A DNA stretch of 39,500 nt, from the IMG/VR virus record IMGVR_UViG_3300022602_000215, positions 1 through 39,500 of that record. One strand, 5' to 3'. The DNA is from a virus. The position numbers and the translations under genes are program-made. Shown here piece after piece: positions 26,535 to 38,774 of the stretch. Below the pieces are notes generated by a model. That model was not told the DNA's origin. It made no database searches and was given only the letters and a program-made list of their open reading frames with translations. Each line of letters starts with the position of its first letter. Position 1 is the first letter of the stretch.

Positions 26535-26557
26535 AAGTAAATATATCCCGTTTCTTG

Positions 26558-26565
26558 TATTTATG
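26558..26565 (-). promoter_or_regulatory. Late-type promoter octamer CATAAATA
   Basis: The minus strand reads CATAAATA, one base from the T4 late element, with a predicted start near 26552 and an 18-base leader before the ATG at 26534. It would fire the whole baseplate block and lies back-to-back with the sigma70-type promoter of the late sigma gene. Confidence 0.6.
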
Positions 26566-26599
26566 AATAGAAATAAAGTGCTTACTTAATAAAAAAGCC

Positions 26600-26628
26600 T
26601 TGACATTTTTGTATTCATTTGCTATTAT
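26600..26628 (+). promoter_or_regulatory. Near-consensus sigma70 promoter for gp55
   Basis: TTGACA at 26600-26605, a 17-base spacer and TATTAT at 26623-26628 give a perfect -35 box, ideal spacing and a -10 one base from consensus. The start would fall near 26635, leaving about 18 bases to the inferred AUU start of gp55. This is the clearest host-type promoter in the window. Confidence 0.85.
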
Positions 26629-26652
26629 TACTTTAGTTTTAGGAGACCGAAA

Positions 26653-27534
26653 ATTAAAACCAACTATCTCAACAACAAGGATATTCTTAAAGAAATCCAC
26701 AAGAGCAAGACTACTTACTGTTGTTTCACACAGCCCGAATACGCTGACTACGATATGATTTTGCCAGATTACAGCAAAATCAACAAGAAAAATACACTGG
26801 AAGCACGCAAGTTGCGTGCAGAACGTTTGGCAAAAATTGCACACGAAGCAGCAACTGCTGATGGAACCAAGCGTAAGTTGGATGAATTTGAAGTCAAACT
26901 CAAAGACGTTAAAGACACTGACGTAGTTTTCCGTGTAATGACTTGGGACCATATTCCCCTAGATGATGCCAAGACCAAGAAAGCCCGTATGGCTGCACTA
27001 GAGATCGAAGATGAAAACGATCCCTTGATTGAAGGATTTGACGAGAACGACACTGAACATAACAAGTACGTTAAAGTCAATTTTCCTCCATTCCAGCATT
27101 TCAAACTAGACGAAAATGGTGAACCCTACTGTGTGGGTAAGTCACACTGGAGAGGCGATTTGGACTCTGGCGAATTCAGTAAGGATCACGGTAAGATGAC
27201 CAAAACTCTGGCCAATATGTATATCAAACTATGTGAACGATATGGTACACGTAGCAATTGGCGCGGATACACTTACAATGATGAGATGAGAGCACAGGCT
27301 CTACTTCAACTGACTTATATTGGATTACGCTTTGATGAATCAAAATCGCAGAACCCTTTTGCTTATTATACTGCCGCTGTTACTAATAGCTTTACTCGTG
27401 TTCTAAACATTGAGAAACGCAACCAGAACATTCGTGACGATATTTTGGAGATGAATGGTCTGAACCCAAGTTATACCAGACAGGGTATGGGTAGTAGCTA
27501 TGCTGGTAGCACAGAATCGAGTTATGACGACTGA
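26653..27534 (+). CDS. 55: Late transcription sigma factor gp55, apparent AUU start
   Basis: A 293-residue homologue of T4 gp55 (185 residues), the sigma subunit that directs RNA polymerase to late promoters with the sliding clamp and gp33. The C-terminal half has the conserved core: NWRGYTYNDEMRAQALLQLT, FDESKSQNPFAYYTAAVTNS and FTRVLNIEKRNQ. The first ATG is at 26755, but the frame is open upstream to 26593 and the N-terminal peptide KTNYLNNKDILKEI, which matches the NYVNNKELL start region of T4 gp55, is encoded before it. No ATG, GTG or TTG lies in that stretch; ATT at 26653 has AGGAGA six bases upstream (26641-26646), so I place the start there. An insertion rich in Lys/Asp (about residues 50-150) is absent from T4. 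The stop overlaps the next ATG by 11 bases. Confidence 0.85.
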   Translation: MKTNYLNNKDILKEIHKSKTTYCCFTQPEYADYDMILPDYSKINKKNTLEARKLRAERLAKIAHEAATADGTKRKLDEFEVKLKDVKDTDVVFRVMTWDHIPLDDAKTKKARMAALEIEDENDPLIEGFDENDTEHNKYVKVNFPPFQHFKLDENGEPYCVGKSHWRGDLDSGEFSKDHGKMTKTLANMYIKLCERYGTRSNWRGYTYNDEMRAQALLQLTYIGLRFDESKSQNPFAYYTAAVTNSFTRVLNIEKRNQNIRDDILEMNGLNPSYTRQGMGSSYAGSTESSYDD

Positions 27535-27775: not shown

Positions 27776-28792
27776 ATGTCTAACCTATTCAAAAAAGCAG
27801 CGCTATTCACAGATATTCACTTTGGCCTAAAGTCAAACAGTCAACTACACAATGAAGATTGTTTGAACTTTGTCAAGTGGGCAACAGCCAAAGCCAAAGC
27901 AGAGGGCTGCGAAACTTGTATGTTCTTGGGCGACTGGCACAACAATCGTGCCAGCATCAACATCTTGACTTTGGGCTACAGTCTCAGAGCATTGGAGCAC
28001 TTAAATGAAAATTTTGATCGGGTCTATTTCATTCCTGGCAATCATGATCTATATTATCGTGATAAGCGGGATGTCCAAAGTGTTGAGTGGGCCAAGCACC
28101 TCCCTAATATACAGATATGCAACGACTGGTTTAGTGACGGCGATGTGGTTATCGCTCCTTGGCTTTGTGCTGACGATCATAAACGTTTACATAAGCTAAA
28201 AGGTCAGTACATCTTTGGTCACTTCGAGTTGCCAGGCTACTTGATGAATGCAATGGTAGCAATGCCAGATCACGGGGAATTCCGCACTGACGACCTAAGT
28301 CATTTCGGACACGTGTTCAGTGGACATTTTCACAAACGTCAGACCAGAAAGAATGTGACTTATATTGGTAACGCTTTCCCACACAACTATGCTGATGCAG
28401 GAGATGATGAGCGTGGTCTTACTATCTTAGAGTGGGGCAAAGAACCAGAGTATCATGCTTGGCCAGATCAGCCCAAGTATCGTGTGTTCAATCTGAGTGA
28501 TATCGTTACGCATACTGAAAAAATGTTGCATCCCGGAATGCACGTTCGTGTGAACTTGGATGTAGATATCAGTTATGAAGAATCGTCTTATATCAAAGAA
28601 AAGTTCACATCTGAATATGGGCTACGAGAACTTACCATAATCCCAGCCAAGACTACCGATCTTACTGATTATCAAATACAGGGCAACATTGAATTTGAAA
28701 GCGTGGATCAGATTGTTACTGGTCAGCTTACCAATATTGAAAGCGATAAATTCAACAAAGCTCTACTCTTGGACATTTATCAAAATCTATGA
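27776..28792 (+). CDS. 47: Recombination nuclease subunit gp47 (SbcD/Mre11-like)
   Basis: A 338-residue calcineurin-like metallo-phosphoesterase, the size of T4 gp47 (339). With gp46 it forms the Mre11/Rad50-type nuclease that resects DNA ends for T4-style recombination-dependent replication and repair. Metal-binding motifs are all visible: FTDIH (residues 11-15), GDWHNNR (52-58), PGNHDLYY (87-94), GHFE (148-151) and GHFHKR (183-188). The ATG at 27776 is preferred over an upstream ATG at 27728 because the protein from 27776 starts with the usual KKAALFTDIHFG. Its stop overlaps the ATG of the radical SAM gene in an ATGA, so the two are translationally coupled. Confidence 0.93.
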   Translation: MSNLFKKAALFTDIHFGLKSNSQLHNEDCLNFVKWATAKAKAEGCETCMFLGDWHNNRASINILTLGYSLRALEHLNENFDRVYFIPGNHDLYYRDKRDVQSVEWAKHLPNIQICNDWFSDGDVVIAPWLCADDHKRLHKLKGQYIFGHFELPGYLMNAMVAMPDHGEFRTDDLSHFGHVFSGHFHKRQTRKNVTYIGNAFPHNYADAGDDERGLTILEWGKEPEYHAWPDQPKYRVFNLSDIVTHTEKMLHPGMHVRVNLDVDISYEESSYIKEKFTSEYGLRELTIIPAKTTDLTDYQIQGNIEFESVDQIVTGQLTNIESDKFNKALLLDIYQNL

Positions 28793-30255
28793 TCTTGGGC
28801 TGCGTGGATATCAGCATTGACTCCAAAGAGTTGTATGAACAATTACTAGAACTGCATCGTACAGAGTTTGGCGCAGAAGACGTTATCATACTTGAGTACA
28901 ATGCCGATGAGTTTGACTACGAGGGCAAGCCAGGTAAACGTTTAACCAAAGCGATAGAATTTCTGAACAAGATAGACATACCTCTATTTTTTGTGCAGAT
29001 TAGCACAGAGTATGAGAATATCGTCGGCGACCTGTCACAGTTAAACGCAGAAATAAAGACAATAAAAAGCAATGTTGCGTTTAACTATCAGTCTGCAACT
29101 GCCAGAAATAGCTTTTGTATTCTACCTTGGATTCACTTGTATGTGGGACCAGATGGTAACGTATTGCCTTGTTGTATAGCAGATATCACAGAACCAATTG
29201 GCAATATAGATACAGCATCTGTACAGTCTATCATAAGCTCTGACCGTGCGGTACAGCTTAGAAAAAATATGCTCAGTGGCAAAAAATGCTCAGAGTGCAA
29301 GAGTTGCTATGTCAGAGAAGATGCTGGGTTGCCCAGTGCCAGAATTCGTGCTAATACTCTTTGGGCAAAATACTTTACTATAGCCAATGATGCTGAGATA
29401 AGAAATTTTAGTCCAAAATATTTGGACATACGAATCAGCAACTTGTGTAATTTAAAATGCAGAATGTGTAGCGACTATTATAGTAGCAGCATAGCACAAG
29501 AAAACAAACAAATATATGGGCAGTCAAACAAGATCATAAAGATAGAAAAGACTGCTGCACTAGAAAATATTAGACCATACTTAGAATCTGCTGAAAAGAT
29601 TTATTTTGCTGGTGGCGAACCATTGCTAATGGCTGAACATTATGCCATTCTGGATACACTGATCGAATTAGGTAATACAGACTTGGAAATTGTTTATACC
29701 ACAAACTTTACTAATCTAGAATTTAAAAATCGCAGTGTACTAGAATTGTGGCATAAGTTTAGCAACGTTACAGTGGGCGCAAGTCTGGATGCAGAAGGCA
29801 CGGCAGCAGAATATCTTAGACACGGTACGGTATGGACAGACATAGAACATAATCGTAGACAACTCAGTGAGCTATGCCCGCAGGTTGGATTTACAGTCAA
29901 CTCCATAGTTCATATGCTCAACGTTGAAAGTTTAATTGAGTTACAACGCAATTGGGCAGATGTTAGATTTACTATGATTCCCTTGATTAGTCCAGATCAT
30001 ATGAGTTTGACTGCTCTGCCAGAGCATCACAAAAATAGATTGGCATCACTGATTGATAATCATATCAGTTGGTTAAAGGTACAGGGTGCCATTTTACTTG
30101 CAGATGAATGGCGAGAAACTGTAAAATACATGTTCAGTTCCAACTCTAGTCATTTGTTAAAAGAATTCCAAAGAGTCACCGCTGAATTAGATGATCGTAG
30201 AAAAGAATCATTCATTACAGTATTTCCACAATACAAAGACCTATTAGATGTTTAA
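28789..30255 (+). CDS. Radical SAM protein with N-terminal twitch domain
   Basis: A 488-residue radical SAM enzyme. The 4Fe-4S cluster motif CNLKCRMC spans residues 220-227 (Cys220, 224, 227), after KYLDIRISN; FAGGEPLL, the usual SAM-binding GGE motif, follows near residue 270. Before the core is a Cys-rich twitch-type domain (about 108-185): FCILPWIHLYVGPDGNVLPC followed by another Cys, and CSECKSC before VREDAGLPSARIR. This order fits the family called N-terminal twitch radical SAM proteins, whose substrates are mostly unknown. The first 100 residues are an extra domain with DVIILEYNADEFDYEGKPGK that I cannot name. The gene overlaps gp47 by four bases and gp46 by eight, so it is locked into the recombination operon. 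A peptide, sugar or nucleotide modification are all possible. Confidence 0.85.
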   Translation: MILGCVDISIDSKELYEQLLELHRTEFGAEDVIILEYNADEFDYEGKPGKRLTKAIEFLNKIDIPLFFVQISTEYENIVGDLSQLNAEIKTIKSNVAFNYQSATARNSFCILPWIHLYVGPDGNVLPCCIADITEPIGNIDTASVQSIISSDRAVQLRKNMLSGKKCSECKSCYVREDAGLPSARIRANTLWAKYFTIANDAEIRNFSPKYLDIRISNLCNLKCRMCSDYYSSSIAQENKQIYGQSNKIIKIEKTAALENIRPYLESAEKIYFAGGEPLLMAEHYAILDTLIELGNTDLEIVYTTNFTNLEFKNRSVLELWHKFSNVTVGASLDAEGTAAEYLRHGTVWTDIEHNRRQLSELCPQVGFTVNSIVHMLNVESLIELQRNWADVRFTMIPLISPDHMSLTALPEHHKNRLASLIDNHISWLKVQGAILLADEWRETVKYMFSSNSSHLLKEFQRVTAELDDRRKESFITVFPQYKDLLDV

Positions 30256-32017: not shown

Positions 32018-32057
32018 CTAATATTTTTATCATGGCACATTGAAAACTAAGTAGTTG

Positions 32058-32495
32058 ATGACATGGATATTTCAAGGAAACCCAGTGGAAACTCTTCCCG
32101 ATGACTGCGTGGGTTTCGTCTATCTCATCACAAATAATCTATCTGGCAAAAAGTACATAGGCAAAAAACTAGCGAAATTCGCAAAAACCACTTATAAAAC
32201 AGTAAAACTCAAGAACGGCAAAAAGAAAAAGCAAAAGATTCGAAGCAAAATCGACTCTGATTGGCAAACCTATTATGGCTCAAACGATCAACTAAACAAA
32301 GACGTTCAAACTCACGGCACCGAAAACTTTACCAGAGAAATACTTTATATTTGTAAATCAAAGGCAGAATGTAGCTACATTGAAGCCCGAGAACAATTTA
32401 CACACAGAGTATTAGAATCAACAGATTATTATAACGGACAAATCTCAGTCCGTGTTCATGGCTCACACATTTTAAACAAACTCAATGGATTATAA
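32058..32495 (+). CDS. GIY-YIG family endonuclease
   Basis: A 145-residue small nuclease. The N-terminal motif GFVYLITNNLSGKKYIGKK shows the VYL...YIG form of the GIY-YIG catalytic core, followed by a basic loop (KTVKLKNGKKKKQKIRSKI), a YYGSND segment and an Glu-containing helix (CSYIEAREQF) that should supply the metal-binding Glu. In T4-like phages such proteins are either free-standing homing nucleases or conserved host-DNA nucleases; the absence of an added DNA-binding domain and the recurring MTWIFQGNPVETLPDDCVGF start argue for the second kind. The ATG at 32058 is taken over the TTG just before it. It overlaps the next gene by 11 bases. Confidence 0.75.
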   Translation: MTWIFQGNPVETLPDDCVGFVYLITNNLSGKKYIGKKLAKFAKTTYKTVKLKNGKKKKQKIRSKIDSDWQTYYGSNDQLNKDVQTHGTENFTREILYICKSKAECSYIEAREQFTHRVLESTDYYNGQISVRVHGSHILNKLNGL

Positions 32496-37064: not shown

Positions 37065-38774
37065 ATGGCCGGATGGAAAAAGTATTTTAAGACCAGCAAC
37101 TTTCAGGGTTCAGTAAGCCCGATTGGCAGCGGGTCACAGACAGTAAACCCAGCGTATCGTGCCACAGCCAGCACACTACCTGAAGTTTATATCGGACACC
37201 CAAACCGTATTGAACGTTATAATCAGTACGAACAAATGGACATGGACAGCGAAGTTAACGCTGCCCTAGACATTCTTGCTGAGTTCAGCACACAGAAGAA
37301 TACAGAGAACGTCAGTGCATTTGATCTGCACTTCCACGAAAAACCCACAGACAACGAAGTCAAAATCATCAAAGAACAGCTACAACAGTGGATTACTTTG
37401 AATGAATTTAACAAGCGTATCTTTAAAATTTTCCGCAATACTATCAAGTATGGCGATCAAGTTTTCATCAGAGACCCAGAGACATTCAAGTTATTTTGGG
37501 TTGAAATGTCAAAAGTTACCAAAGTTATTGTTAACGAGAGTGATGGCAAAAAGCCAGAACAATACGTTGTCAAAGACATTAACCCTAACTTTCAAAACTT
37601 GACTGTGACTGCGGTTAGTACGTCAGACACATTCACTAATCACCCACAAGTAGGTGGCCCAAGCGGTAGTTATGTTCAACCTCGCAGCCCTTACAGTGGT
37701 GGTTCAAGATTTAGTCACGCACAAAACGAAGCAGTGGTCAACGCTGAACACGTTGTACACTTAAGTTTAACTGAAGGTCTTGATATATTCTGGCCTTTTG
37801 GTAACTCAGTACTAGAAAACATCTTTAAAGTTTTCAAACAAAAAGAATTGCTTGAAGATTCGATCATTATCTATCGTGTGCAACGTGCGCCAGAACGCCG
37901 TATGTTCAAGATTGACGTGGGTAATATGCCAACACATATGGCTATGGCCTTTATTGAACGTATTAAAAACGAAATCAATCAACGCAGAATCCCAACACAA
38001 TCAGCAAGTGGTCAGAATATGATGGATGCTACATACAATCCATTGCAGACTAACGAAGACTTCTTCTTTCCACAGACTGCTGACGGACGTGGAAGTAGTG
38101 TTGAAATCTTGCCCGGTGGTCAAAACTTAGGTGAGATCACAGACTTGAAGTTCTTTACTAACAAACTATTCCGTGGTCTACGTATTCCTGCAAGTTACTT
38201 GCCAACTGGTATTGACGATGGTTCACAGACTATCAGCGATGGTAAAGTTGGTACAGCCCTGATTCAGGAATGGCGTTTCAATCAGTATTGTAAGCGCTTA
38301 CAGGGTATGGTCATTGACAAGCTGGATCAAGAGTTTAAGATGTTTATGCGCTGGAGAGGCATCAACATTGACGGACAGATTTTTGATCTACAGTTCAATG
38401 AGCCACAGAACTTTGCGCAGTATCGTCAGGCAGATATTGACGGTGCCAAGATTGGGACATTCACACAGTTAGAGCAATATCCATACTTCTCAAAACGTTT
38501 CTTGATGAAGCGTTATTTGGGCTTAAGTGAGATGGAGATGAGCGAAAACGAGATTATGTGGGCCGAAGAAAAAGGCAAAGCAGAAAGCGCAGATGCTGGT
38601 CAAGCCAACTTGCGTAACGTTGGTGTTACTCCTGGCGGTCTTGCAAGTGATCTTGAAAACGTTACTCCCGAAGCTGGCGCACAACCAGCTGGCGGTGCAT
38701 TAGATCAGGGTGCAGAAGCTGGCGCAGCTCCTGCTGCAGGCGCTCCCGCAGCAAGCCCACCCGGTGTAATGTAA
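37065..38774 (+). CDS. 20: Portal vertex protein gp20
   Basis: A 569-residue portal protein (T4 gp20 is 524). Twelve copies form the channel through which DNA is packaged and ejected, and prohead assembly starts on it. Family features: RIERYNQYEQMDMDSEVNAA with LDILAEFS near residues 48-75, NTIKYGDQVFIRDPETFKLF near 127, a long central helix region with LENIFKVFKQKELLEDSIII and YRVQRAPERRMFKIDVGNMP (about 245-290), DATYNPLQTNEDFFFPQTAD near 322, and GLRIPASYLP followed by the tail helix EWRFNQYCKRLQGMVIDKLD. The last 45 residues are an Ala/Pro/Gly-rich tail not present in T4 and probably disordered. It heads the head-gene module. Confidence 0.95.
   Translation: MAGWKKYFKTSNFQGSVSPIGSGSQTVNPAYRATASTLPEVYIGHPNRIERYNQYEQMDMDSEVNAALDILAEFSTQKNTENVSAFDLHFHEKPTDNEVKIIKEQLQQWITLNEFNKRIFKIFRNTIKYGDQVFIRDPETFKLFWVEMSKVTKVIVNESDGKKPEQYVVKDINPNFQNLTVTAVSTSDTFTNHPQVGGPSGSYVQPRSPYSGGSRFSHAQNEAVVNAEHVVHLSLTEGLDIFWPFGNSVLENIFKVFKQKELLEDSIIIYRVQRAPERRMFKIDVGNMPTHMAMAFIERIKNEINQRRIPTQSASGQNMMDATYNPLQTNEDFFFPQTADGRGSSVEILPGGQNLGEITDLKFFTNKLFRGLRIPASYLPTGIDDGSQTISDGKVGTALIQEWRFNQYCKRLQGMVIDKLDQEFKMFMRWRGINIDGQIFDLQFNEPQNFAQYRQADIDGAKIGTFTQLEQYPYFSKRFLMKRYLGLSEMEMSENEIMWAEEKGKAESADAGQANLRNVGVTPGGLASDLENVTPEAGAQPAGGALDQGAEAGAAPAAGAPAASPPGVM

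Follow-up and report, generated by a model that had tools for sequence, protein, structure and literature searches.

To our knowledge, few non-canonical start codons have known roles, and nearly all of them are bacterial. The Escherichia coli gene infC, whose start region reads GGAGGAATAAGGTATTAAA, begins with AUU and encodes the autoregulated initiation factor IF3, and E. coli pcnB also begins with AUU, which limits its yield. In vitro, IF3 lowers AUU/CAU initiation while raising initiation on cognate pairs (PMC10158994). In Staphylococcus aureus, AUU and AUA starts with extended Shine-Dalgarno (SD) sequences give ~10% of the AUG yield in poor medium (PMC13009471). The Streptomyces sigma factor gene sigR begins with GTC and has AGGAGGTG; IF3 represses it, and replacement of its start codon deregulates the sigR regulon (PMC5472188).

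The DNA analyzed here (the window), 39.5 kb in length, is part of the genome of an uncultivated virus. One of its frames encodes a protein matching PHROG 12791, "sigma factor for late transcription" (E = 3.6e-81), PHROG 234 (E = 3.8e-23), and the solved T4 gp55 structure (7D7C chain F, E = 4.6e-5); in a weak alignment, residues 7–26 of T4 gp55 (KYNYVNNKELLQAI) pair with KTNYLNNKDILKEI of the window protein. By these matches, the frame from 26653 to 27534 encodes gp55. The frame is open from a stop codon 63 nt upstream of an ATT at 26653, and the first-pass annotation had proposed that translation begins at this AUU. The features of the locus are as follows.

26558 to 26565, – strand: CATAAATA, a T4-type late promoter-like element belonging to the divergent structural gene and standing back to back with the promoter of gp55
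26600 to 26628, + strand: predicted sigma70-type promoter of gp55 (TTGACA at 26600–26605, 17-base spacer, TATTAT at 26623–26628, TGn before the –10)
26641 to 26646, + strand: predicted SD sequence AGGAGA, with 7 bases between AGGAG and the ATT start
26653 to 26655, + strand: predicted gp55 start codon ATT (AUU), aligned with ATT/ATC in relatives, with codon periodicity from the next codon on
26653 to 27534, + strand: gene for the T4-type late sigma factor gp55 (293 codons and a stop codon), matched to PHROG 12791 and structure 7D7C
26662 to 26688, + strand: conserved N-terminal segment NYLNNKDIL, missing from the product if the start is the ATG at 26755

T4 and jumbo phages (PA5oct, GAP32, RaK2, 121Q, and others) encode the same protein family, and the gene order of divergent structural gene, gp55, and gp47 is common to the window and most of the cultured jumbo phages examined. 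Unlike in the window, however, the gp55 start is ATG in all 15 cultured homologues checked. Between gp47 and gp46, the window has a gene for a radical SAM/SPASM protein (28789–30255, + strand; PF13186, E = 1.1e-11; PF04055, E = 4.7e-8), and a SegE-type GIY-YIG endonuclease gene follows gp46 (32055–32495, + strand; PF19835, E = 2.4e-34).

We collected gp55 loci by an IMG/VR protein search and pattern scans, the scan pattern being neutral among ATT, ATC, and ATA, and added the cultured homologues, which gave at least 235 distinct loci. The aligned start codon was ATT in 64 (window counted), ATC in 7, GTG in at least 24, TTG in at least one, and ATG in at least 139; the NTG-start loci are those among the matches listed, and the counts are not frequencies. 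Proteins from ATT/ATC-start loci were 41–90% identical to the window gp55, and the close relatives L133 (90%), L168 (87%), L096 (86%), and L002 (85%) have ATT. No in-frame NTG lay between the upstream stop and the start codon in 54 of the 71 ATT/ATC loci, and no NTG in any frame lay within 20 nt in 53 of the 71. In three loci (L024, L108, and L102), an in-frame stop lies 6 nt (two codons) upstream of the ATT. The substitution pattern across codon positions changes at the same place: in 1115 pairs of ATT loci, substitutions at the three positions were 0.10/0.04/0.49 in codons 2–12 and 0.54/0.57/0.56 in the 11 codons upstream of the ATT, so coding constraint sets in precisely with the codon that follows the ATT. 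The relatives thus confirm and extend the observation of an AUU start, making it stronger than it was from the window alone: the aligned ATT or ATC in 71 distinct loci, with constraint beginning right after it, bears out the proposed start at 26653, and the window sequence bears out the companion statement that the frame contains no ATG, GTG, or TTG before 26755. On this comparative evidence, we consider it close to certain that the gp55 start codon is AUU, and a large group of uncultured T4-like giant phages shares such predicted starts.

The codon itself appears to be under selection. ATT, ATC, and ATA occurred in a ratio of 64:7:0 at the start, compared with 26:27:14 at isoleucine codon 11 of the same genes (Fisher, 1e-10); as read from these alignments, start codon choice is specific, with ATT far above ATC and ATA. 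On a tree of gp55 from which the first codons were left out, made by a quick method and a simple model, the ATT label required 17 changes, against a mean of 53.7 in shuffles, and ATH versus NTG required 18. The tree includes a distant ATH pair, L145 (ATT, 46% identity) and L105 (ATC, 41%). In this reconstruction, the AUU start is an old state with repeated switching, kept through deep evolution. Some close relatives have a GTG or ATG start with a weaker SD sequence, so AUU itself is not indispensable.

The AGGAGA that had been noted at good spacing before the ATT is likewise supported as a strong SD by the relatives. GGAG was present in 66 of 68 ATT/ATC loci and in 23 of 152 NTG-start loci among the matches listed; when relatives of at least 60% identity were considered, the figures were 61 of 61 ATT/ATC loci and 4 of 82 others, again among the matches listed. 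Across 11 supported independent pairs, the SD moved with the codon 7–8 times and in the opposite direction mostly 0–1 times (median sign-test p = 0.016). For example, L168 (AGGAGATGCAAAATT) has ATT with AGGAGA, and its close sister L209 (AGGAAACACACGTG) has GTG with AGGAAA, in genes whose proteins are ~95% identical. These comparisons show that predicted SD strength co-varies with the start codon. Leader folding showed no clear difference between ATT loci and NTG loci.

The gp55 start combines a conserved codon other than ATG, GTG, or TTG with a strengthened SD, as expected of the group that holds infC, pcnB, and sigR, and it belongs in kind with them. Like gp55, sigR encodes a sigma factor and has a conserved non-canonical start with an extended SD that gene callers miss (PMC5472188), but its codon is GTC and not AUU, and its product serves in the bacterial stress response and has an anti-sigma partner. 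For sigR, repression by IF3 has been demonstrated experimentally; for gp55, it is a prediction from sequence. The E. coli infC start resembles that of gp55 in having AUU followed by AAA and a purine-rich SD, but infC closes a loop in which IF3 controls its own synthesis. Since the gp55 gene does not encode IF3, any effect of IF3 on gp55 would be open-loop. The S. aureus genes cvfC1 (AUU) and ccpN (AUA) share with gp55 conserved non-canonical starts and an extended SD, with limited yield (PMC13009471). In contrast to gp55, however, cvfC1, ccpN, and pcnB are cellular genes with no role in a viral developmental switch.

The near-perfect sigma70 promoter, TTGACA-17-TATTAT, that the first-pass annotation had placed upstream of gp55 is present, and most ATT-start relatives have a promoter of the same type. 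With 11 of 12 consensus matches, it ranked first among 13 sigma70-like hits in 5 kb; since that number of hits is about the chance expectation, the claim rests on the score and on conservation. The predicted transcription start lies near 26635, ~18 bases before the ATT. The best promoter score in the 80 nt upstream averaged 9.37 over 63 ATT relatives, compared with 7.78 in shuffles, and the –10 usually ends 21–29 nt before the ATT. In ~20 relatives (L003, L004, L091, L109, L115, and others), an inverted repeat, GTTAG-N6-CTAAC, overlaps the –10 region 30–50 nt upstream of gp55 and may be an operator; it is absent from the window.

The intergenic region of the window (26535–26652) houses both the gp55 promoter and the late promoter-like CATAAATA. 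In a similar arrangement, a late promoter-like element was found within 150 nt upstream of gp55 in 25 of 62 ATT loci, compared with ~3% in shuffles. Other T4-type late promoters in the window are as follows.

1938, – strand: T4-type late promoter TATAAATA
34746, – strand: T4-type late promoter TATAAATA
37036, + strand: T4-type late promoter TATAAATA, 29 nt before the gene at 37065
38782, + strand: T4-type late promoter TATAAATA

As expected of a genome with a gp55-family factor, T4-type late promoters stand before structural genes, and because they are present, the genome appears to carry the expected gp55 targets.

We also asked how far AUU starts extend beyond gp55. Among the contigs with an ATT/ATC gp55 start, ATG begins gp47 in 58 of 60 cases and gp46 in 44 of 47. 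In a strict scan of ~690 kb of related genomes, gp55 was the only convincing SD-led ATT start, with one further weak match, in G004; a looser scan, whose matches mostly fell within long genes, was set aside. On these results we rejected a general use of AUU starts in these genomes, and the comparisons show the predicted AUU start to be specific to gp55 among the genes checked. Searches for a phage-encoded IF3, in which positive controls worked, found PF00707 absent in 20 related contigs and PF05198 in 6, many contigs being fragments; IF1 and IF3 genes have been reported in huge phages elsewhere (PMC7162821). No AUU-reading initiator tRNA was evident in the tRNA lists of two contigs (338 kb and 154 kb) or in that of the first 160 kb of a third. 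The 338 kb contig (G001, that of L115) has three CAT-anticodon tRNAs, one of them initiator-like (121650–121725, – strand; L318:1650-1725), with an A1/A72 mismatch and without the full GGG/CCC anticodon stem. This tRNA belongs to an array of ~40 tRNAs and has a homologue in the GTG-start jumbo contig G019. In L338 (4352–5279), from the 360 kb contig G002 of a distant ATT-start jumbo phage, ARAGORN predicted tRNAs with stop-reading anticodons (cta twice and tta once), which are possible suppressor tRNAs.

We propose that the gp55 start acts as a translational attenuator. The gene would be transcribed from the host-type sigma70 promoter into a message with a leader of ~18 nt and translated from the AUU at 26653, where the strengthened SD would place the ribosome and offset the poor pairing of AUU with the initiator tRNA. 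The combination of a strong early promoter with slow, IF3-discriminated initiation would keep the late sigma factor low at first, so that late genes are not switched on too early. We put the probability that AUU, strengthened SD, and sigma70 promoter together limit late sigma factor synthesis at roughly two in three. Attenuation is the likely reading of the conserved start region, and these phages probably hold the late switch down at the level of translation. By analogy with the known cases, we infer that AUU with a strengthened SD would lower the amount of gp55 made from each message and render its synthesis sensitive to IF3. In those cases AUU is discriminated against by IF3, which makes it plausible that late onset depends on host IF3 or the state of the translation machinery, as the first-pass annotation had suggested. 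It is speculative that a shift in IF3 or ribosome state during infection releases gp55 translation. A further idea, that the start is a checkpoint at which late expression waits for less free IF3 and more initiator tRNA, with translation fidelity as the timer, is a tentative one, and we think it rather doubtful.

The alternative that survives best is that the AUU start is real but only one of several equivalent solutions, a weak codon with a strong SD equaling AUG or GUG with a weak SD, among which lineages drift with no dedicated regulation. The 18 ATH/NTG changes on the tree with the SD moving in step, and the close sisters L168 and L209, are what such drift would leave behind, and relatives in which GTG or ATG is paired with a weaker SD are also compatible with plain equivalence of output. 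The strengthened SD may bring gp55 output back to normal, and attenuation would then be slight. The ATG starts of the cultured relatives and the lack of an IF3 gene in the related contigs searched likewise count against the attenuator reading. Against equivalence, ATA, which is one transition from ATG, never occurs, ATC is rare, neighboring genes lack such starts, and the state extends to the 46% and 41% identity of L145 and L105. Since ATA is absent and conservation is deep, equivalence is disfavored as pure drift, and we regard it as unlikely, if still a serious contender. It is far less probable that the region is a site for a RegA-like translational repressor or other factor, with AUU kept as part of the binding site. 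The block AGGAGA-N-N-N-AAA-ATT-AAA is indeed conserved around the start, but SD, start codon, and coding explain its conserved bases, and the bases between the SD and AAA vary. A search with the RegA profile PF01818 gave no match, and its positive control was likewise silent.

Translation from the internal ATG at 26755 (codon 35), with the upstream frame untranslated, is very improbable. Although no canonical start precedes this ATG in the window frame, codons 2–34 show a strong third-position substitution bias, and this constraint upstream of 26755 led us to reject it. The NYLNNKDIL segment that an internal start would remove had been described as conserved, and it is kept in all the gp55 relatives listed, with NYVNNKELL as its equivalent in T4 gp55. 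Moreover, the first internal NTG in relatives ranges from codon 6 to codon 96, and there is no conserved SD at 26755. A sequencing or assembly error hiding a true ATG, for which nothing but the rarity of the codon speaks, is ruled out by 71 distinct loci, drawn from many separate metagenomes, that have ATT or ATC with a co-varying SD, the 90%, 87%, and 85% relatives all having ATT where near-identical phages with ATG would have pointed to such an error.

In the literature searched, mostly without subscription papers, and among the cultured relatives checked, we found no phage AUU start; a conserved viral non-canonical start on a developmental sigma factor appears to be new in the literature that could be searched. 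Gene callers that accept just ATG, GTG, and TTG as starts would cut this master regulator short in these genomes, in the window by 34 codons. Dozens of phage lineages have kept a non-canonical start on the gene governing the switch from early to late expression, and the AUU start of gp55 would offer a model, open to direct testing, of how translation could control phage timing.
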